Source of the DNA: an archaeon
GTDB lineage: Archaea; Nanobdellota; Nanobdellia; Pacearchaeales; GW2011-AR1
Length of the DNA stretch: 32,411 bases
Direction: 5' to 3'
NCBI GenBank assembly: GCA_018694115.1
Contig: JABHNB010000004.1
Span: forward strand, 1 to 32,411
The stretch's first letter is position 1. The number at the start of each line of letters is the position of its first letter. Below the pieces are notes generated by a model. That model was given only the letters and a program-made list of their open reading frames with translations, ran no database searches and had not been told where the DNA came from. The position numbers and the translations under genes were made by a program. Of this stretch, positions 7,572 to 25,338 are shown one piece after another.

Positions 7572-9082
7572 TATTTTTTCTTCTTCTCCTTCTCGCCAGC
7601 TTCTTCTGGCTTCATTAGTGGAAAAGCAACACACTCTCTAATTGGTCGGTTCATCATAAACGAAAACAATCTTTCACTGAATCCGAACCCACACGCAGGA
7701 GGCATTCCGTATTTCAAGGCCTCAACAAATCCCTCATCATGATCCATCGCCTCACTATCTCCTTCTTCACCGAGAGCTTTCTGACTTTTGAATCTTTCTT
7801 CCTGATCAAGAGGATCATTCAATTCACTATAACCATTTCCATTCTCGCTTCCGCCCAAAATAACCTGAAATTGCTCAACCTTTCTGGGGTCCTTCACATT
7901 TCTTTTAGCCAAGGGTGTTAATTCAACTGGCTGTCCAATTAAGAATCCTGGTCCTGAAATATCTTTCCTACAATATTTCCAGAGCAAATCAACTAATCTC
8001 CATTTGCCAACAGAATCATCATATTCCATCTTTAATTCATTCAATTTCGCCATAATCTCTTCCTTGTCTGTCCCATAAATATCTACTCCGGTTTTCTCTT
8101 TGATTAAACTCTCAAAATCATACTTCTTCCACTTTTTACCTAAATCAATCTTATGGCCTCCTGCCTCAAACTTTAGGCTCCCTAAGGTTGCCATTGCAAT
8201 TTCTTTATACAACTCTTCTACCAATCTCATTCCGTCTTCAAAATCTGCATATGCCCAATAAAACTCCATCTGAGAATAGTCTTGTAGATGCTCCGCATCC
8301 ATCCCTTCATTTCTGAACTGTCGTCCGATTTCAAATGTCTTTTCATAGCCTGCCACCAACAATTTCTTTTGCCATAACTCTCCCATAGAGATTCTTAAAT
8401 AAACATCTAAGTCAAGAGCATTATGGTGTGTGTTGAATGGTGTAGCCGCAGCCCCCCCTGAAGAATTCTCAAGAATTGGGGTCTCAACTTCTAAAAACTC
8501 ACGTTCAATCAAAAAGTTTCTAATTGTGCTCCAAAACTTCTGTTTCTTAATGAAAATTTCCTTAACTTCCGGATTCATAATTATATCCAAATATCTTTTT
8601 CGAAGTTTTTCTTCATCATTCTTTAACCCGTGGAATTTTTCCGGGAGTGGCAAAATCGCCTTGGTTAGAATCTCGAGCTTGTCTGCCATAACTGAAATTT
8701 CACCTCGCTGTGTTCTAAACACTCGTCCTTCAACCCCAATTATATCTCCAGCATCCGCTTTCTTAAAAAATTCAAAAGTTTCTTCAGGAGTTTCGTCCTT
8801 CTGAAAGACTATCTGGATATTTCCCTTAAGATCCTGTACCTTTGCAAAAGCAATCTTCCCCATTTTTCGCTTAGTCATCATTCGCCCAGCAATCCGAACT
8901 GCGCCACCCTTAGCAAATTCCTCTTCCTTAAGCTTAGAATTTTTCTCCTTAATCTCTGCAGAATGAATCCTCTCTCCTTCAAACTTATGTGCATAAGGAT
9001 TAACCCCACTTTCCTTAAGCGCAGCTATCTTTTTGATTCTTTCATCAACTATCTGTTTCTCTCGGCCTCGAAGCTCTGCCAT
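7571..9082 (-). CDS. lysS: Lysyl-tRNA synthetase, class II
   Basis: Protein of 503 residues that charges tRNA-Lys with lysine in the cytosol. An OB-fold anticodon-binding domain covers about 50-150 (VRIAGRMMTKRKMGKIAFAKV, GNIQIVFQKDE). The class II core follows: motif 1 around FLEVETPILE, motif 2 FRNEGMDAEHLQDYSQ, and motif 3 in ACGFGFSERL. The motif 3 region differs from the bacterial G-x-G-I-D-R form (GFGFSERL), and the C-terminus is extended with EKEKKKK. TATA (TTTATAAA) sits 25-26 nt before the ATG. It leads the lysS-dedA-histone-fold operon. Confidence 0.93.
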   Translation of the reverse strand: MAELRGREKQIVDERIKKIAALKESGVNPYAHKFEGERIHSAEIKEKNSKLKEEEFAKGGAVRIAGRMMTKRKMGKIAFAKVQDLKGNIQIVFQKDETPEETFEFFKKADAGDIIGVEGRVFRTQRGEISVMADKLEILTKAILPLPEKFHGLKNDEEKLRKRYLDIIMNPEVKEIFIKKQKFWSTIRNFLIEREFLEVETPILENSSGGAAATPFNTHHNALDLDVYLRISMGELWQKKLLVAGYEKTFEIGRQFRNEGMDAEHLQDYSQMEFYWAYADFEDGMRLVEELYKEIAMATLGSLKFEAGGHKIDLGKKWKKYDFESLIKEKTGVDIYGTDKEEIMAKLNELKMEYDDSVGKWRLVDLLWKYCRKDISGPGFLIGQPVELTPLAKRNVKDPRKVEQFQVILGGSENGNGYSELNDPLDQEERFKSQKALGEEGDSEAMDHDEGFVEALKYGMPPACGFGFSERLFSFMMNRPIRECVAFPLMKPEEAGEKEKKKK

Positions 9083-12130: not shown

Positions 12131-12847
12131 CTATTCTAACTCATCAAGGATACTTAAAACTTCCGAGATTTTTTTAATAGTGGCATTAGGTTTTTGATAA
12201 TCTTCTTTATGTTTTTTAGCAAGGGGACCTTTCTTAATCAAAACGCTAAATAAACCAACAGAGTTCGCACCTTCTATGTCTGCGACAGTGTTATCTCCCA
12301 CCATTATTGCACCATCGGGGGAAGTTTTCAATTTGTTTAATGCTAATAAAAACATGATGGAGTTAGGTTTTTCACTTCCACTCTCTTCAGACGTTATCAA
12401 AAAATCAACATATTTAGAAATGCCCAATTTTTTCAATTTCTTCAATTGTATGTGTGTAGTCATATCCGAAACAATTGCAATTCCTAACCCTTTCTTTTTT
12501 ATCTCCTTCAAGGTCCTCAAAGTTTCTCTAAATGGCTTTACATTTTTCAAGAAAGAATTCCAATAAGCATCATAAAGCTTCAAGATAATTGTGGGGTTTA
12601 CAGTGTTGTGAGTTTTTTCAATTAACCTCTGAAAATATAAAACCCTATTGTGTGCAGAGGCAGTCCCCGAAAGTTCTCTTTTAATCTCGGCCTTAGAAAT
12701 TTTAAATAAATAATTGAATTTAACTTTAGAAATTTTAATAGTCTTTTTCAATTCTGAAAATGCTGCGGCCAGTGCCTTTTTGTGCGGAGCCTCATAATCA
12801 TATAATGTATTATCTAGATCAAACAGCACAGCCTCTCTTTTCACCAT
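12131..12847 (-). CDS. HAD-superfamily hydrolase, phosphoglycolate-phosphatase/haloacid-dehalogenase type
   Basis: The chosen start gives 238 residues beginning MVKREAV. TATA (GTATAAAA) is centred about 29 nt before this ATG, but only 20 nt before the next ATG upstream (12856), which argues for the shorter form. HAD motif I is LFDLDNTLYDYE, motif II is in IVSDMT, motif III is the Lys near SGSEKPNS, and motif IV is MVGDNTVADIEGA. A helical C1 cap lies between motifs I and II. It is a Mg2+-dependent phosphatase for a small substrate. The 4-nt gap to RuBisCO suggests a linked role, such as removing 2-phosphoglycolate or another sugar phosphate; that is inference, as HAD substrates cannot be read from sequence. 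Confidence 0.85.
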   Translation of the reverse strand: MVKREAVLFDLDNTLYDYEAPHKKALAAAFSELKKTIKISKVKFNYLFKISKAEIKRELSGTASAHNRVLYFQRLIEKTHNTVNPTIILKLYDAYWNSFLKNVKPFRETLRTLKEIKKKGLGIAIVSDMTTHIQLKKLKKLGISKYVDFLITSEESGSEKPNSIMFLLALNKLKTSPDGAIMVGDNTVADIEGANSVGLFSVLIKKGPLAKKHKEDYQKPNATIKKISEVLSILDELE

Positions 12848-15898: not shown

Positions 15899-16450
15899 CT
15901 AAGCCATTACTTCAACATCAAAGAAGTCTGTCGCATATCTTTGATTATCCATCTTAACTTCCAAATGGAATCTTACAGTACAAAGCGGTGAAGTCTCTGG
16001 AACAAAGAACCTCGCGATTCCAAAGAATGTATCTCCCGGACTAATATCCATTGAATCTGATCGACCTGTAGTTATCCAATTCTCTACATCCCTCTCACCA
16101 ATACCACATTTTTTTCGAACATCCGGATCTGAAACCACAACTTCATAACTAAATCGTCCTGCTTCTGCCGAGCCCCTTGCCAGATTCTTAATACCAAAAG
16201 CAACTCCCCATTCATCATTTTGATCAATCTTTGCAATCTGATTTGGAAGGTAAACAACAGTCTTTTTATCCTCGACAAATAACTTATTAATCTGATCCTT
16301 AACCTTATCATTCATTTGAAGAACATTCTCCGAAGATCCGGTAAAGATATTTTTTACAAGTACAAGCCCTAAAATCAACATAGACATAGCCAAGACTATA
16401 ATTACAATAGTACCAATAGATAACTCAATCGCACCACTCTTATTCACCAT
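15899..16450 (-). CDS. Pilin/archaellin-like protein with class III signal peptide
   Basis: Protein of 183 residues. The start MVNKSGAIELSIGTIVIIVL shows a short basic leader with a Gly, then Ala-Ile-Glu and a long hydrophobic helix, the pattern cut by prepilin peptidase in archaeal type IV pilins and archaellins (probable cut after Gly6). The rest is a beta-rich exported domain with two Cys (KKCGIGE, SPLCTVRF). It is expected in the membrane or on a surface filament. No assembly ATPase or platform gene lies nearby, so filament type is undecided. TATA (TTTATAAA) lies about 28 nt before the ATG. Confidence 0.75.
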   Translation of the reverse strand: MVNKSGAIELSIGTIVIIVLAMSMLILGLVLVKNIFTGSSENVLQMNDKVKDQINKLFVEDKKTVVYLPNQIAKIDQNDEWGVAFGIKNLARGSAEAGRFSYEVVVSDPDVRKKCGIGERDVENWITTGRSDSMDISPGDTFFGIARFFVPETSPLCTVRFHLEVKMDNQRYATDFFDVEVMA

Positions 16451-17208: not shown

Positions 17209-18369
17209 TCAGGTCAACTCAAAACCCTTTCCTTTCTTCTTAGCGAGAATCTTATTGGGGTCAATATGAACTCCACCCTTAGAATCTATTCTCAAATCTA
17301 CAATTCTCCTCTTGAAACTGATTCCCCTCATTTTAAGGATCTCAATTGCACTAGCCCTTTCCCCAGAATCATAAATCACATTATAGATCACGATAATCCC
17401 ATCAGATAAGAAGGAGACCGCCTCTCCCTGTTCCTTAAACGTCGTTCCAATATGTGAAGGACTAGAAACTTCCCTAATCAAAAAGTTTGTGATCTTGTTC
17501 TTTTCAAGATATCTAAATAACTGCTCCATATAAATTCTAAAACGAGATTCCTGTCCGGAAAAGGCAGAAGAAATACTTGTCAAGGAATCTACTGCAACAA
17601 AATCTGGATCATAGTCCTTTGGAAAAAATACTGGATCAACTTCAATTAACAACTCTTTCTTAGCCGCACTTAATAGGGCCTCAATACTCCTCGAAACATC
17701 AATCGCATCAAATCTCTTTACTCTTAATACTCCCTTCTTGACCCATTCCCGAGCAGGCCACCCAAACCCTTCCATATGATTAAGAAGGTTCTCCTCTGAT
17801 TCTTCAAAACTCATATATAGGCATTTTTTACCTCGAGAACACATACTCGCCAGAGTAGTCAAACAAAATAAGGTCTTTCCACTCCCCGGACCACCCTCAA
17901 CAAGAATTGAGGAACCAAAGGGAATCCCCATATTTTCGTTAAATAACTCATCAAAACCCGCGACCCCCGTATGGACATATTTATCCGGATCGTGTTTTAT
18001 GGCCTTACCTTTCTTCTCACCCTTAACTTTCTCTTTCTTTTCCTTAGTAGAAACCTTACCCCTCTTAGCCTCGATCTTCTTACCCTTCTTCATCTCGCTC
18101 TCCTTAAACTTTTCTTTCAAATCAATTTCCTTCTTCAATCTTTTTTGAACTTCGAGAACGGTCTTCTTAGGGATTTTCTTTGCCTTGCCGTTTAATTCCT
18201 TAGCTAACTTTTTTTGAACCTTTTCAATCTTTTTCCTTTGGTGCTCCGGAGCTTCAAGCGGGTGACTTGCTAGGTCTATATTTTTCTTAATCTTACTCTT
18301 TTCAGCATTGTCTTCTTTCCCCCCGAATAGCCTGCCAAAAAATCCTCTTTTCTTCTCAACCTTCTTCAT
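17209..18369 (-). CDS. KaiC/RadA-type RecA-superfamily ATPase with long basic N-terminus
   Basis: Protein of 386 residues. Residues 1-130 are very Lys/Glu-rich and helical, probably a coiled-coil or nucleic-acid-binding arm, opening with an amphipathic KKRGFFGRLFGG. The ATPase core follows: TGVAGFDELFNENMGIPFGS, Walker A GGPGSGKT (159-166), paired catalytic Glu in SFEESEE (189-190) and Walker B DFVAVDS (Asp261). The end of the core reads EILKMRGISFKRRI, the KMR element common in archaeal KaiC-like proteins. Such single-domain KaiC homologues are thought to act in signalling or in membrane/motility regulation. A TATA box (TTTAAATA) lies about 26 nt before the ATG. Confidence 0.85.
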   Translation of the reverse strand: MKKVEKKRGFFGRLFGGKEDNAEKSKIKKNIDLASHPLEAPEHQRKKIEKVQKKLAKELNGKAKKIPKKTVLEVQKRLKKEIDLKEKFKESEMKKGKKIEAKRGKVSTKEKKEKVKGEKKGKAIKHDPDKYVHTGVAGFDELFNENMGIPFGSSILVEGGPGSGKTLFCLTTLASMCSRGKKCLYMSFEESEENLLNHMEGFGWPAREWVKKGVLRVKRFDAIDVSRSIEALLSAAKKELLIEVDPVFFPKDYDPDFVAVDSLTSISSAFSGQESRFRIYMEQLFRYLEKNKITNFLIREVSSPSHIGTTFKEQGEAVSFLSDGIIVIYNVIYDSGERASAIEILKMRGISFKRRIVDLRIDSKGGVHIDPNKILAKKKGKGFELT

Positions 18370-18477: not shown

Positions 18478-18630
18478 ATGGTGGAAATAAAAATATCTGT
18501 TTCAGATAAGATGGAAAAGGTGATCCAAAAGATAGTTGATGACCTGGGAATCAAGAAAACAGAGTTCGTGAAATCCCTAATTATCGAAAATTTAAAGAAA
18601 CTAAATTCAAAAGATAAACATGAAAAATAA
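18478..18630 (+). CDS. Ribbon-helix-helix (CopG/Arc-like) regulator, 50 aa
   Basis: Direct translation gives 50 residues opening MVEIKISVSDKMEKVIQKI and continuing LGIKKTEFVKSLIIENLKKL. This is the RHH layout: a short polar strand (VEIKISVS), helix A (DKMEKVIQKIVDDLG), then helix B after a K-K-T-E-F turn. RHH proteins dimerise and put the strand in the DNA major groove. It overlaps the giant surface-protein gene by 11 nt in another frame, so it leads that operon. AAGTGAT a few bases before the ATG may be a weak ribosome binding site. It probably represses its own operon via the palindrome at 18446-18463. Confidence 0.8.
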   Translation: MVEIKISVSDKMEKVIQKIVDDLGIKKTEFVKSLIIENLKKLNSKDKHEK

Positions 18631-21600
18631 ACATCTTCTAATATTTTTCACGTTGCTCCTCCTTAGCGCCTCAACAGTTTCGGCAGTATTCTCAACATCT
18701 ATTAACTCTTATGATGACGGTTCAGATAATCAAACTTATGTCAGGACAGATATGATTTTCTATACAAACTATTCCAGCGATGACGATTATAATTTGGGGC
18801 AAGTTATGTATCGGAATCCAACAGATTTAAGCACAGGTTATTATGTCCGAGCTTTCGATCCGGACGGAGTTGGAAATAAAACAGCATTAGTCTATTCAGA
18901 ATCTGATAATATTCGGGCACATTATGCCAACGGAACAGAAATTTGGGATTCTTATAATAGTGCTTTCGATTACGCATATGGTATGGAATCCGGAGATTAT
19001 AATGGAGATGGGCAAGAAGAAATTGCATTCATTTCAAGTGGAGGAAGTCTCTTTATTTTAAACGGAACTAATGGAAGTATTATTTATGAATCAACCGATT
19101 ATTATACAGGTTATACAATGGCAGATGGTGATTTAGATGACGACGGTTTAAAAAATGATTTTGCAATAGGGGTCAGAGACATTAATGGTGCAACAGGAAA
19201 TAATTATGGTATTGTTGCATTGGTATATAATGGTACCACATGGAATGAAAATTGGACATCTAACGACGCAACCGCCGCACCAATTGATATAGATATCTCT
19301 GAAGTGACTGGAGAAAATCTAGTAGCATTCACAGATAATGCCGGGGGAAAGGCAATTGTTTATTATGGTAATGGGACTCAGAAATGGATTACTGCAGATA
19401 GGGGTACTGCCTATAGTATAACTTTTTTTGACCAAGATTCTGACGGCGAGGAGGACGAAGTAGCAATGGGAGAATACAGTGAGTTAAGAATTTATACTGA
19501 TACTGGAACAGAATCAACTGCAACTGCTCCAACGGGCAATGAATATGAGATAGAAAAGATTGATTTAGATGAAGATGGAATTTATGATGATATTTTGATT
19601 TCAAGTAATTACCATACTGTTCGTGCTTATAATTCCGATTTAACTTTGGCTTGGACATTTGTCGCGCCGTTTAAGGGATTTGAATCTACTTATTATGCTT
19701 CTTATCTCACCAATATTAAAGTTGGTAATGTAAATAACGATTCTTCTGACGAAATTATCGTAGGAGGATATAGTCGTAGATATTATATTTTAAATCTTTC
19801 AGGAGATATTATTGGAAAACATTATCATGGCGACGAGGAAAACTTAAATAATATTGGTTATATTGGATTAATTTATGGGAAGTCTCCTGGAATTGATATA
19901 ATGAATGATACCAATGGGGATGGAATAAACGAAATTCTTTCAGACAGAATCAGCGGTTATTTTTATGTTGGGCAACAAGTAATGTGTAAGATAAACATTA
20001 ATGGAACTGAAGATTATATGTATTATAATTATAGTTCTAGTTTATGGGAATATTATTATAGCTTTAAGGATACCGGGTTTGACAGGACAGTCTTTAGTAA
20101 TAGTAGTGTTATTTGGAATGTTACCTGTGAAAAATCAGGCTACGAAACACAAACAAGTCAAGATACCAACATAACAGTCATATTAAAAAACTCCACTTTA
20201 GATGTTTTTGACCAAGAAGACGACGACGAAAACAACGCTGGATGGTTATCTGAAGACATTGTAACCGCAAACGAATCAACTTACTTTTTTGCAAACTACA
20301 CAGACGCCTCAACAAGCACAAGTCCCAGAGATTTAACAATAACTACAGATTGGTTTACGGATTTTGGAAATGGTTACGGTTTTTATGATGTGGCTGCTCT
20401 TGACTCTGATGGAGATGGTATTAAAGATGGGTTTGCTTATTCTCAATTAGATGGAGTGAGCGCCTATACTTTTTCAGGAAGTTTGATTTGGACAAGAACA
20501 GATACGCAGTATGATTATTGTTATAATTTAAAGACTGGAGATTTTAACAATGATGGATTTGAAGAAGTTGCATGTTCTGGGAGTTATGGTGTTTTGGCTA
20601 TTTTAAATGGAACAGATGGAACCGAAATTTTTCAATCAAGTGATTATTATACTGCTTATACATTAGGTGTTGGAGATATAAATAATGATAGTATTGATGA
20701 AGTAATTTTAGGTGTTAGAGACATTAATGCAGGAACTGCGACTAATTATGGGCTTGTTGCATTCACTTGGGATGGCAGCACTTTTGTTGAAAATTGGACA
20801 GCAAGTGATTTAACAGTATATCCCGTTGAAATACAAGTATCAAAACTTTCTAGCGGAGAATCTTTAGTTGGTGTTGTTGATTATTCTGGAATAGATGATT
20901 TTGTTATTTATTATGGTAACGGAACCAAAAAATGCCAATCCATAGATTTAGTAAGTTATTTGTCTACACTAGATTTTATCGATTTCGATGGGGATGGAGA
21001 CAGGGACGAAATCATAGTTGGAGAATACGGGGAAACCTACGTCTATAATGAAGATTGTACAAGAAATAGAACAGATACAGCTTCTGAATCATTGGTTTAT
21101 GAAATAAGTGAGATTGATTACGATGGGAACTCTTCAACAGTTGAATATGTATTTTTTGAAAGATACGATATACGTCTAATTAATAGTAGTGGGGATGTGG
21201 TTTGGTATTATCCGGTTCAAGATGATCTTTATGGTATGATGGATGTAATTGATTTAGATGATGACGGTGAGGAGGAAATTATCTTTGGAGGTTATAGTGG
21301 CGGGTTGCATATTTTGAATCTTTCTGGAGCGGTTAAGTATATGTATGATTTAACTAGCCCAAGTGACATAGATAGTTCTGCTATTGATGACGAGTTTACA
21401 AGAATGAATTTCGGATTTTATGGAAAGGGCGCGGGATTTGAATTTGCGAATGTTTCTAATGGTGTTTCTTATTTTGGCTATGCGGTAGATGAGGCTTATG
21501 TCGGTGCCGGAGAAATTTATCCAAGATGCATAATAAGATTCAATGATTCAATAACGGCCAAAATGAGTTATAACATTTCTGCAGGCCTGTATTATTATGA

Positions 21601-24166
21601 AAGGAATTTTACTGCCCAAGGTTCTTATGATTGGAATGTAACCTGTGAAAGCTACGGTCACGTCACCCAAACCTTGTCAGACACAATAAATGCAAACACT
21701 CCTCCAAGCGAGGTTACCATCACAAACACTCCAAGTTCCCTAGACAATCTGGACCCAAATATCACAATCGTCATCGAGGCAAATATTTCTGATGTAAACA
21801 GTAACCTTGATACGGCTATTTTACAATGGATGAATGTTAGTGATGGAACATGGAACAATGTTACCATGGAAAATACGACCACAAAAGGAGCTTACACTAT
21901 CTTAACAGCGAATTTTACTCCCGCATATAGTGTGGAATCTAACTACACTTATAAGATTTGGGCAAATGATACAGAATCTGCTTCGAGTACAAGTAGCAAT
22001 ACAACCATCGTAGTATACTGGGACTGCACATGGAATGCTACTTCTAGTCTGGACGCTGTTGCTGGATGGGATGAAAATAAGTTTATAGGAAATATCTCAA
22101 TAAATAACACTGGGGATTCAGAATATAGCGGAGGTTGCAGTTTAGATTTTAGATTAACTTACAATTTAGCAGAAGGAAGAGTTTATTTCGATACCAGCTA
22201 TTACAAACCTTCTTCAACATACACTATCGCAGAAAAGGTAAATCAAACAATAGTCATAAACGCAACTTTCGGAACAGATGTTTTACAAGAAGATGTTATA
22301 ATTACAACCACAGAACTACTAGGTATTACAAACACTCCTTCAAGAAACACAACAGCCACACTCATTTCAAATCAGGCAGGACCCTACCTTTACCAGGTAA
22401 TTACTTCTAATCCTGCCTCTGCATATCTAACTCCCGGAAATCTGACCTTAAATGGTTATCTTAGGAATTTAATGGGGGCAGACAGCTTCAATGAGAGTAA
22501 TACTGCATATAACGTTTCATTTAACTGGACATTACCTTCCGGGTTAACAAATAACTCTGGAAATGAGAGCATAAATCTACCGAATCTTACTGATTCTGAC
22601 CTTCACTATAATAATGTAAATATCAGTTTTTCAGATTTAGCCTCTTTCTCTCCAGGAATACAAACAATTACTCTCTTTTCAGAAGGATATAATATTTCGG
22701 GTAATTTAATCGAAGACGCTTCAGGAAATCAGAACCTCACCGATTCGTTTAACATAACTTTTCTTTGCTATAATGAATCCGACGGAATTTATGTAACTGC
22801 CTGCGGGACTTTGGATGCAGATTACGTTGCGCCTTCAGAGGGGGGGACTTCGGGTGGTGGCGGAGGGGGAGGAAGCGGAGGAGATAGAAAATTTGAAAGC
22901 ATAGTAAGCCGGATAGGTTTTCAATTAGTCAGGGGAGAACAAAATGAGGTCGAGATAGAGTTTGAAAACACAGATGATAATAGGTCCATATCCAATGCAA
23001 TCTTCACAGTTTCTGGAAAGATTTCAAAATATATTGAGATCTATCCTACCATAATATCTGAAATAGCTCCTGGACAAAAGGTGAATATCACTCTAAAAAT
23101 AAATTCTCCAACATACATTGAACTAGGGAAACAAGAATTAAAGATAACTATGAAAGGAAGAAGAGGCATTAGGGATTTGACCGAGACAAAAACAATCACC
23201 TTAGAAATTCACGAGTTAACTGGGGAAGAGGCGGCGAAACTTCTAGAGGAATCGGAAGAGTTCATAAAACAACTGGAGGAAGCAAACCTTTCTTATGATT
23301 ATCTTATCGAACTTTATAACGAGTCAAAAGAAGAAATAGCGAATTTCGATTACGAGTTAGTAAGGGATAATCACAAGATTATCAAATCTCAAGCAACTGC
23401 GGCACTAAAGTCCAAAAAAATAATTGATGAGCTTACTGGGTTGTTGGATGAGGCCCAGAAAAAAGGAGTTAATACTTTCAATTCAAGAAAACTATTGAAG
23501 CTAGCACAAATATCTCTGGGGAGAAAAGAATTTGAAGAGGCCTATGAAAAGGCGAAGAATGCACAGTTAACTTATTCTCTTGAGGTAAAGGGGGAGTTTG
23601 GAGAACTTTCATATTATTTAGAAGAATATCCTATGGAAATTTCTCTTTCAGCAATTTTCCTTGTTCTCTTTTCATTTGGTAGTTTCAAGTTAGGAAGATT
23701 GCAGATGATAAAAAAGAAAATAAAAAGATTAAAACGAGAAGAAAAATTAATTGAGGAATTAATCGGGGCAATTCAAATTGAAACATTTAAGGAAAACAAG
23801 ATGTCCATGGAAGAATACCAAACTGCACTAGAGCAATACCAAAAAAGGCAGTCCCACATAATTGAGGAATTAATCGAGCAAGAAACAAAGAGGATCCACG
23901 CTCTTAAGTTCACGAGAGAAGAAAAAAGATTAAACGAAGAGAAAGAAAGAGTTATCGAACTAGTAAAGGAACTCCAAAAAGATTATCTTGGAGAGAGAAC
24001 TGTAGAAACCAGATCCTATGAATTAAGGGTAGAGAGTTACAACAAAAGATTAACCGATATAGACGAGAAACTTGCATTATTGGAGGCAAAGAGAGCATTC
24101 AAACGGGGAGCAAAAAAAATTCTTAGTGGGGGAAGGAAAGTTCCTAAAAAGGAGAGAATAAAATGA
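18620..24166 (+). CDS. Giant cell-surface protein with two duplicated FG-GAP-like domains, C-terminal TM helix and coiled-coil cytoplasmic tail
   Basis: Protein of 1848 residues with a signal peptide at 1-22. Two homologous ~430-residue copies (about 75-510 and 590-1015) each hold repeats with Ca-binding-type D-x-D-x-D-G loops (DYNGDGQEE, DLDDDGLKND, DTNGDGINE; DSDGDGIKD, DFDGDGDRDE) and share VRDIN, ILNGT and YYGNGT blocks, as in FG-GAP/VCBS beta-propellers. Each copy ends in an N-V-T-C-E element. Ig/FN3-like domains (about 1030-1400), a Gly-rich hinge near 1415 and a COG1470-like domain follow. Then come a helical region, a TM helix (about 1670-1690) and a coiled-coil tail with two ~47-aa modules. 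N-glycosylation sequons are abundant. It is likely a large adhesin or S-layer-type protein; its ligand is unknown. It overlaps the next gene by ATGA. Confidence 0.88.
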   Translation: MKNKHLLIFFTLLLLSASTVSAVFSTSINSYDDGSDNQTYVRTDMIFYTNYSSDDDYNLGQVMYRNPTDLSTGYYVRAFDPDGVGNKTALVYSESDNIRAHYANGTEIWDSYNSAFDYAYGMESGDYNGDGQEEIAFISSGGSLFILNGTNGSIIYESTDYYTGYTMADGDLDDDGLKNDFAIGVRDINGATGNNYGIVALVYNGTTWNENWTSNDATAAPIDIDISEVTGENLVAFTDNAGGKAIVYYGNGTQKWITADRGTAYSITFFDQDSDGEEDEVAMGEYSELRIYTDTGTESTATAPTGNEYEIEKIDLDEDGIYDDILISSNYHTVRAYNSDLTLAWTFVAPFKGFESTYYASYLTNIKVGNVNNDSSDEIIVGGYSRRYYILNLSGDIIGKHYHGDEENLNNIGYIGLIYGKSPGIDIMNDTNGDGINEILSDRISGYFYVGQQVMCKININGTEDYMYYNYSSSLWEYYYSFKDTGFDRTVFSNSSVIWNVTCEKSGYETQTSQDTNITVILKNSTLDVFDQEDDDENNAGWLSEDIVTANESTYFFANYTDASTSTSPRDLTITTDWFTDFGNGYGFYDVAALDSDGDGIKDGFAYSQLDGVSAYTFSGSLIWTRTDTQYDYCYNLKTGDFNNDGFEEVACSGSYGVLAILNGTDGTEIFQSSDYYTAYTLGVGDINNDSIDEVILGVRDINAGTATNYGLVAFTWDGSTFVENWTASDLTVYPVEIQVSKLSSGESLVGVVDYSGIDDFVIYYGNGTKKCQSIDLVSYLSTLDFIDFDGDGDRDEIIVGEYGETYVYNEDCTRNRTDTASESLVYEISEIDYDGNSSTVEYVFFERYDIRLINSSGDVVWYYPVQDDLYGMMDVIDLDDDGEEEIIFGGYSGGLHILNLSGAVKYMYDLTSPSDIDSSAIDDEFTRMNFGFYGKGAGFEFANVSNGVSYFGYAVDEAYVGAGEIYPRCIIRFNDSITAKMSYNISAGLYYYERNFTAQGSYDWNVTCESYGHVTQTLSDTINANTPPSEVTITNTPSSLDNLDPNITIVIEANISDVNSNLDTAILQWMNVSDGTWNNVTMENTTTKGAYTILTANFTPAYSVESNYTYKIWANDTESASSTSSNTTIVVYWDCTWNATSSLDAVAGWDENKFIGNISINNTGDSEYSGGCSLDFRLTYNLAEGRVYFDTSYYKPSSTYTIAEKVNQTIVINATFGTDVLQEDVIITTTELLGITNTPSRNTTATLISNQAGPYLYQVITSNPASAYLTPGNLTLNGYLRNLMGADSFNESNTAYNVSFNWTLPSGLTNNSGNESINLPNLTDSDLHYNNVNISFSDLASFSPGIQTITLFSEGYNISGNLIEDASGNQNLTDSFNITFLCYNESDGIYVTACGTLDADYVAPSEGGTSGGGGGGGSGGDRKFESIVSRIGFQLVRGEQNEVEIEFENTDDNRSISNAIFTVSGKISKYIEIYPTIISEIAPGQKVNITLKINSPTYIELGKQELKITMKGRRGIRDLTETKTITLEIHELTGEEAAKLLEESEEFIKQLEEANLSYDYLIELYNESKEEIANFDYELVRDNHKIIKSQATAALKSKKIIDELTGLLDEAQKKGVNTFNSRKLLKLAQISLGRKEFEEAYEKAKNAQLTYSLEVKGEFGELSYYLEEYPMEISLSAIFLVLFSFGSFKLGRLQMIKKKIKRLKREEKLIEELIGAIQIETFKENKMSMEEYQTALEQYQKRQSHIIEELIEQETKRIHALKFTREEKRLNEEKERVIELVKELQKDYLGERTVETRSYELRVESYNKRLTDIDEKLALLEAKRAFKRGAKKILSGGRKVPKKERIK

Positions 24167-25338
24167 AAACAAGTAAAAACTTATTTTTAGCATTGGTCTT
24201 GGTGACGCTAGTCATTTCTCTAACAAATTTTTCCTATGCCTTAAGTAACCAATCCATGCAAGCAAAAGAAAAGCTTGCACAGGCGGGGAGTGCAATTGAA
24301 GAGCTGATAGTATTGGATATCCCCATTAAACGGGTTAATGAGACCCATCAGAGTGCCAAACAAATCTACGAAGCACAACTTAATTATGAAAGAATCTATC
24401 GGAATGCAGATTACAAATTAGTTATTGAATATGTGGATGAAATACTATCTATAAAGGAAATGGCCATTAAGGCTTCAGACGAACTAAAAATCTTCCTAGA
24501 ATTCTATAATGAATCTGCAGAAAAAACTGACTTATCTGAAATGGATGAGGAATATACCGAAATTATCTCTTCATTTGAAGAAGAACGATTTGAAGAAACG
24601 ATAAATTTAGTAGATCTTGGTTATGATACCATCTCTGATGTCGAGACTAGCCAGACAACAATTAACGCCTTTAGAGATGCAACCACAAGAACCTTAAAAA
24701 ATTTCTTTAAAGAGAATTGGATAAAACTCCTAATCGGTCTAGGCGCAGCAATAATCCTATTCATGATATTTAAAACTAGTCTAAAAATATACTTGGTAAA
24801 GAGAAAAAAGAAACATCTTAAATTAAGAAAGGCCACAATTGAAGATTTAATAAAAGAACTTCAAAGAGGATATTTCAAGGATAACACCGTTTCACAACTT
24901 CAATACCAAACAAGACTAAATAAATTTGAAGAAATGGTCCGAGATATAAACCGTCAGCTCCCTTTACTAGACGAACAGATGTCTCTTATTGACGATAAAA
25001 AAGACTTCAAGAATTTTAAGAGATCAAAAAAGACTCTAGAAAAAGAACCAACGAAAGAGGAACCCGTGAAAGAAGAACCTGTTCCAAAAGAACCTATCGA
25101 AGAAAAATCCCCAAAAGAAAAAATAATCGTAAAAAAGAAACCAACTAAGAAGACACCAACTAAGAAGACACCAACTAAGAAGACACCAACTAAGAAGACA
25201 CCAACTAAGAAGACACCAACTAAGAAAAAAACTCCGGTCAAGAAACCAACAAAAAAATCAACCACAAAAAAGAAATTGGTTAAGAAAACAGCAAAGAAAA
25301 TTCCATCTAAGAAGAAAATAAAAGCCAGTAGGAAATAG
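24163..25338 (+). CDS. Membrane-anchored companion protein with helical ectodomain and Lys-rich repeat tail
   Basis: Protein of 391 residues. It has a signal peptide (1-26), a mostly helical ectodomain (about 27-180) and a TM helix (IKLLIGLGAAIILFMIF). The cytoplasmic module IEDLIKELQRGYFKDNTVSQ with QYQTRLNKFEEM and INRQLPLLDEQ resembles VIELVKELQKDYLGERTV with YELRVESYNKRL and IDEKLALLEAK at the end of the giant protein upstream. The last ~110 residues are Lys/Thr/Pro-rich with six T-K-K-T-P-type repeats, like histone H1 tails, and face the cytosol. The ATGA overlap with the previous gene implies coupled translation and partnership. The last codons overlap the RNase P RNA gene on the other strand. 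Confidence 0.85.
   Translation: MKTSKNLFLALVLVTLVISLTNFSYALSNQSMQAKEKLAQAGSAIEELIVLDIPIKRVNETHQSAKQIYEAQLNYERIYRNADYKLVIEYVDEILSIKEMAIKASDELKIFLEFYNESAEKTDLSEMDEEYTEIISSFEEERFEETINLVDLGYDTISDVETSQTTINAFRDATTRTLKNFFKENWIKLLIGLGAAIILFMIFKTSLKIYLVKRKKKHLKLRKATIEDLIKELQRGYFKDNTVSQLQYQTRLNKFEEMVRDINRQLPLLDEQMSLIDDKKDFKNFKRSKKTLEKEPTKEEPVKEEPVPKEPIEEKSPKEKIIVKKKPTKKTPTKKTPTKKTPTKKTPTKKTPTKKKTPVKKPTKKSTTKKKLVKKTAKKIPSKKKIKASRK
25141..25230 (+). repeat. 15-bp tandem repeat, five perfect copies plus one degenerate
   Basis: The unit CCAACTAAGAAGACA is repeated in frame inside the companion gene and encodes P-T-K-K-T. The unit length is a multiple of three, so copy-number changes would keep the frame and only alter tail length. 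This is a coding minisatellite, not a CRISPR array: there are no spacers. Confidence 0.95.
25313..25323 (-). terminator. U-rich 3' end of RNase P RNA
   Basis: On the minus strand the P1 helix is followed at once by TTTTATTTTCT, the oligo-U type of archaeal terminator. The tract is the complement of Lys/Ile codons (AAA ATA AAA) at the end of the convergent companion gene. Confidence 0.5.

Follow-up and report, generated by a model that had tools for sequence, protein, structure and literature searches.

A candidate surface apparatus of DPANN archaea, composed of a giant protein, its headless paralogue and a neighbouring KaiC-like ATPase

The DNA analysed here, a stretch of 32,411 nucleotides referred to as the window, carries neighbouring genes for a giant surface protein, for a short membrane partner (the stub) and for a KaiC-like ATPase, which probably make up a conserved DPANN surface apparatus for signal-controlled recognition or adhesion. 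Giant and stub share a module of 47 residues, present twice in the former and once in the latter. The original prediction had recognized the three modules and proposed a possible new envelope apparatus. This proposal is largely supported and can be extended, in that the 2+1 pair is recurrent, matches no curated family convincingly in its stalk or module and usually has a KaiC neighbour; the ATPase, the homology between giant and partner and the conservation of the 2+1 count had been missed. To our knowledge, the mechanism by which DPANN archaea hold and recognize their hosts is largely unknown, and their giant surface proteins have mostly been annotated singly.

The KaiC-like gene (17209 to 18369, minus strand) encodes a RecA-fold ATPase of 386 amino acids with a Lys-rich N-terminal extension (PF06745, E 5.4e-39), and is divergent from the gene of the giant (18620 to 24166), a protein of 1848 amino acids defined by a FG-GAP_3 match (E 2.5e-9), AlphaFold (AF2) models and hydropathy. 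The giant, and all the features of giant and stub given below, lie on the plus strand. From its N- to its C-terminus, the giant is composed of a signal peptide (18620 to 18691; hydrophobic segment at residues 6-24, read directly), FG-GAP blocks, an Ig-like region, a Gly-rich linker, a beta domain, an extracytoplasmic stalk of five helices (23222 to 23590; AF2 and hhalign) homologous to that of the partner, a transmembrane (TM) helix (23630 to 23686; AF2 and hydropathy) and the modules M1 (23750 to 23890) and M2 (23951 to 24091). The stub, of 391 amino acids (24163 to 25338), has a start overlapping the stop of the giant by 4 nt, and contains a signal peptide, an extracytoplasmic helical stalk (24247 to 24714; AF2), a TM helix (24727 to 24783; AF2 and hydropathy), the module M3 (24838 to 24978) and a low-complexity, basic, Lys-rich tail (25027 to 25335), where about six TPTKK repeats can be read directly. 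The length of this tail varies among homologues, and most of them differ from the window protein in this region. Two genes away from the ATPase, a pilin-like protein with one N-terminal hydrophobic helix is also encoded (15899 to 16450, minus strand), homologues of which are found near pairs in loci L108 and L113.

The three copies align without gaps over 47 residues, with pairwise identities of 30-32% and invariant Leu, Gln, Tyr, Ile and Leu residues, at the positions originally assigned to them. BLOSUM62 scores between copies are 58, 61 and 84, corresponding to z values of 4.6-4.9 over shuffles retaining the hydrophobic/polar pattern of each copy, and exceed those of all 4144 control 47-mers, Pro/Gly-poor and of similar charge and hydrophobicity. 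When HMMs were built leaving one copy out, the omitted copy scored 23.8, 34.0 and 37.5 bits, against 10.8 for the best of the 4144 controls; a profile of the module thus detects its own copies well above the coiled-coil background. A six-frame search of the parental genome with the three-copy profile returned, besides these copies, only a second pair located on contig C9 (E 1.3e-10 and 4e-4).

When modules from different loci were compared, the nearest relative in another locus occupied the same position for 48/48 M1, 45/48 M2 and 47/49 M3 sequences; on sequence grounds, M1, M2 and M3 are three distinct orthologous positions. M1, described in the original prediction as a more diverged copy, is indeed present and is the first in the giant, but represents a conserved position class of its own rather than a decayed copy.

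The similarity between the two proteins goes beyond the module. Profile-profile alignment of giant and partner by hhalign covers 229 columns (probability 99.6, E 2.8e-24) and runs through stalk, TM helix and first module. The alignment identifies the partner as a paralogue of this part of the giant, without the head. Both proteins look N-outside, single-TM and C-inside because of their hydrophobic segments and of the Lys/Arg clusters which follow the TM helix in both window proteins; exactly two hydrophobic segments, i.e. signal peptide and TM, are found in 47 of 49 partners. Hydropathy and charge therefore agree with the outside-in anchoring and the cytoplasmic location of the modules originally proposed.

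AlphaFold models, computed from 49 and 48 natural homologues, reached a mean pLDDT of 96.3 for the partner and 92.7 for the giant tail, the stalk of the giant being mostly above 90. Each of M1, M2 and M3 is predicted as a closed antiparallel helical hairpin. In M1 and M3 the TM helix runs on for about 25-30 residues into the cytoplasm to form the first helix, which is followed by a six-residue turn and by the returning helix; the giant tail features a second hairpin in addition. Since the modules are modelled as closed hairpins, coiled-coil pairing among the copies is not required; the pairing suggested earlier is unsupported as stated, and what the models predict is a set of hairpins.

No Pfam or NCBIfam model matched stalk or module over its curated cut-off, and PDB sequence searches and Foldseek searches with stalk and module gave chance-level matches only. 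A CdvA-like coiled coil (PF18822) was hit in 2/48 giants (best 6e-5; shown score 20 bits, below the cut-off of 30) and was taken as helix background. The heads are variable: FG-GAP, LamG, DUF2341, right-handed beta helix, Ig-like and DUF11 domains were found among 13 giants scanned over their entire length.

The pair on contig C9 (L007) is paralogous to that of the window, with the same build and the same 4-nt overlap: its giant has Ig-like repeats, a Gly-rich linker, stalk, TM helix and two modules, its partner a single module. The C9 giant gene (L007:7094-14356, minus strand) is interrupted in frame by a TAG near 12790 and a TAA near 8704, with no frameshift, due to either decay or sequencing error. 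Beyond this genome, searches with profiles built from six, and later from 34, module copies detected modules in 11 of 56 relatives, in 38 of the 200 genomes sampled from the order, in 47 of 378 of the class and in 48 of 371 of a phylum sample, all of the latter within the class of the window. A few matches are weak or of another kind, and 34 genomes of the order and 46 of the class were accepted as pair genomes. Overall, the two-gene unit is found in about 12-19% of the sampled genomes of this archaeal class, which includes Ca. Pacearchaeota and others.

Almost every locus yields three module matches. Two of them, spaced by about 66-69 residues, close the frame of the giant, which can reach about 4,900 residues; the third belongs to a frame of roughly 280-520 residues that lies downstream. 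Locus L124, which contains an additional two-module protein, is an exception. In L051 (10662-11693) a partner is found with no adjoining giant and a response regulator just upstream. Two module fragments of equal score, in 41-aa frames, were detected in one genome (G091:C5:317123-317230 and G091:C3:242132-242239), the former near the end of its contig (317,233 bases); they are likely repeated giant tails which broke the assembly. Named records were scanned with four close giant tails (A6), so that only close relatives were found; depositors assigned them mainly to Candidatus Pacearchaeota, but also to Nanoarchaeota, Nanohaloarchaea, Micrarchaeota and Babeliales. The record titled Candidatus Babeliales bacterium (L138), which includes a close giant relative, is a probable mis-binned archaeal contig.

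Several lines of evidence indicate that giant and partner very probably work as one complex, as originally proposed. A same-strand partner lies downstream of 44 of 48 giants, and 22 of these 44 pairs overlap by exactly 4 nt between start and stop. In a mirror-tree comparison of 42 pairs, giant-tail and partner distances correlate with r 0.884, whereas permutations reached 0.18 at most. Within the parental genome, the correlation is specific for the cognate protein: the window giant gives r 0.90 for its own partner but -0.39 for that of C9, the C9 giant r 0.91 for its own and -0.34 for that of the window. Two closely related pairs, of the three in genome G009, are inseparable by co-evolution, and the two pairs of G272 show no clear signal. 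Giant and partner are fused on contig C22 of genome G560, in one continuous frame of 1608 codons containing M1, M2 and M3; here the signal segment of the partner has turned into an internal TM and a KaiC gene is close downstream, but this single example could be an assembly indel. The overlap, the matched co-evolution and this one fusion largely support the joining of the two proteins. Physical contact between hairpins would be a further step; adjacency or co-occurrence can also reflect co-regulation.

Clustering of the ORFs neighbouring the pairs revealed a KaiC-like ATPase family in 31 loci, nearly always adjoining the pair. Only two KaiC-domain genes over the Pfam cut-off exist in the genome of the window. 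Order-wide matches to the window KaiC are bimodal in identity (at least 43% or at most 32%), and the close subfamily is found in 27 of 34 pair genomes versus 4 of 166 others (Fisher 7e-23, phylogeny ignored). At class level (378 genomes), setting pair against KaiC gives the table 39/7/8/324 (Fisher 6.7e-38, phylogeny ignored), and presence and absence of the two agree inside several genera. Among the 36 loci in which the pair is flanked on both sides by 1.5 kb or more, 30 have KaiC at a distance of 1 kb or less, with about 2% expected; in a set of loci fetched later, it is found in 11/13. KaiC was undetected in 7 of the 46 pair genomes of the class; in one 'pair-only' genome, diverged KaiC genes adjoin the module proteins. 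To test the association as a prediction, seven genomes outside the order with the KaiC subfamily but no detected module were also opened, and in four of them a diverged module, giant or partner was found directly beside it. Within genus g41, the genomes carrying KaiC are not those carrying the pair, though the bins are incomplete, and the C9 pair has no adjoining KaiC. Co-evolution of KaiC and giant (r 0.67, with no in-genome control) is weaker than that of giant and partner. Taken as genomic evidence, adjacency and co-distribution suggest that the ATPase belongs to the system.

Among 30 pair-adjacent homologues, the Walker A residues G159, G162, K165 and T166, the catalytic Glu pair E189-E190 and the Walker B residues D261-S262 are invariant, which makes ATPase activity plausible. 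In L047 (2-1405) the ATPase is fused to a hemerythrin domain, and a small ORF preceding KaiC in L184 (7346-7747) looks hemerythrin-like by eye; a possible O2 or redox input may be envisaged.

Other genes are found near the pairs. An inactive KaiC-like protein of about 175 aa (cluster C1; weak DUF7504/KaiC match) is present in 13 loci, CheY-like response regulators in 8, and sensor kinases are also encoded. Either a multi-TM protein of about 190 aa (8 loci) or a two-TM protein of about 160 aa (6 loci) is found, mostly directly after the partner. In L194 (10026-16572) a CheA-CheY-CheY-CheC-MCP-CheW operon directly follows the giant. A ParA/MinD-type ATPase separates giant and partner in L124, L197 (4995-5807) and L200 (7270-8073), a location which suggests positional control.

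The model which we favour starts from computed elements, namely the 2+1 anatomy, the homology of stub and giant, the gene overlap, the co-evolution, the single fusion and the adjacency and co-distribution of KaiC. Giant and stub would be made by coupled translation and would stand next to each other in the membrane, their matching stalks on the outer side; the correspondence of stalk, TM helix and hairpin in the two proteins suggests such a complex, in which three hairpins would point into the cytoplasm. The 2+1 hairpins may contact one another and form a platform, on or below which the KaiC-like ATPase, probably a hexamer, would dock. Docking is the most economical role that we infer for KaiC, by analogy with ArlH (PMC8978795) and with KaiC-like proteins as archaeal signalling hubs (PMC5847659). 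KaiC would in turn link the platform to chemosensory, two-component and sometimes ParA/MinD proteins. Signals might travel in either direction: the cell would sense what the heads bind, or would switch, place or strengthen the attachment, plausibly to a host cell or to a polymer. Recognition or adhesion as the putative function is suggested by the lectin-like and beta-propeller heads together with the DPANN lifestyle. A more daring version, held only tentatively, describes an archaeal envelope machine not reported so far, in which a giant adhesin and its headless paralogue seat a KaiC ring on three hairpins, and episymbiotic DPANN archaea control host attachment, by sensing, by switching or mechanically, with Che and two-component input and ParA-type positioning.

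The strongest alternative, which we regard as possible though doubtful, is that the pair is only a receptor: the hairpins of giant and stub would pass a binding signal to a KaiC hub, attachment being incidental, with no force or ATP-driven change at the surface. The response regulators, inactive KaiC-like proteins, sensor kinases and the one complete Che operon near the pairs fit this idea, as does the naming of KaiC-like ATPases as archaeal signal hubs (PMC5847659); but a protein serving as a receptor and nothing else would rarely have LamG, beta-helix and FG-GAP heads that bring it to about 1,100-4,900 residues, and it is the head that varies. An unlikely alternative makes the stub a stoichiometric filler or an assembly factor in a coat of giants, with hairpins serving only for oligomerization and KaiC regulating expression or assembly from afar. 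The stub does have the stalk, TM helix and hairpin of the giant, the genes overlap and the giants are S-layer-like in composition; the patchy occurrence (34 of 200 genomes of the order), however, is unlike that of an essential coat, and neither a conserved adjoining KaiC subfamily nor three separately conserved module classes would be predicted. That the modules are generic charged coiled coils, alike by composition, in otherwise unrelated neighbours would fit copies which are Glu/Lys-rich and only about 30% identical, but this highly improbable explanation is refuted by the pattern-preserving null, the leave-one-out controls, the orthology of positions and the homology of the whole membrane halves.

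Under the favoured reading, a surface apparatus combining giant, stub and KaiC, adhesins so far grouped only vaguely would become a defined apparatus whose parts can be expressed and whose cytoplasmic platform can be tested. The back-to-back genes, the 2+1 hairpins and the KaiC neighbour suggest an undescribed surface apparatus which may be controlled from inside the cell. It would also supply an example, other than the archaellum, of a KaiC-like ATPase that has a definite partner in the membrane, which is of interest for the question of how surface machines came under the control of KaiC-type switches.

Among giant surface proteins described from DPANN archaea, the nearest are the SPEARE proteins of Nanohaloarchaeota, which carry domains resembling type III restriction enzymes in the tail and LamG/adhesion domains in the ectodomain (PMC6642349). 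They share with the window giant the topology, i.e. a mostly external protein with a C-terminal TM and a conserved cytoplasmic tail, and a variable ectodomain. Their tail is restriction-like, whereas here two helical hairpins, a stub partner and a neighbouring KaiC-like ATPase are found. No Pfam match to a type III restriction-like domain was detected in 48 giant tails or in the 13 giants scanned whole; in the latter set, the SPEARE serine protease had no match and LamG was present in 3/13 only. As to the hairpins, their antiparallel geometry is like that of ESCRT-III (CHMP4B) and prefoldin (TM-score 0.82 by target length for 4abm), a likeness of generic shape only (Foldseek E 2-3, about 17% identity).

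The archaellum motor includes a KaiC-like ATPase, ArlH (PMC8978795), and the likeness extends to a KaiC-like ATPase placed by a membrane apparatus, to the Che links and to the Walker motifs. Identity of the window KaiC with ArlH is not supported (NF052589, 35.9 bits, below the cut-off of 215), the archaellum membrane proteins are unrelated to the single-pass proteins of the window, and ArlI, ArlJ or archaellins were not noticed among the recurrent neighbour clusters of the pairs. In open-access full-text literature, no link of Pacearchaeota with KaiC was found. KaiC-like ATPases have been called archaeal signal transduction hubs in PMC5847659, which cites Makarova et al. 2017. The loci described here resemble such hubs in that a KaiC ATPase, an inactive KaiC-like protein, response regulators and Che proteins lie close together, and differ from them in that one KaiC subfamily is linked to a specific giant-stub pair of surface proteins.
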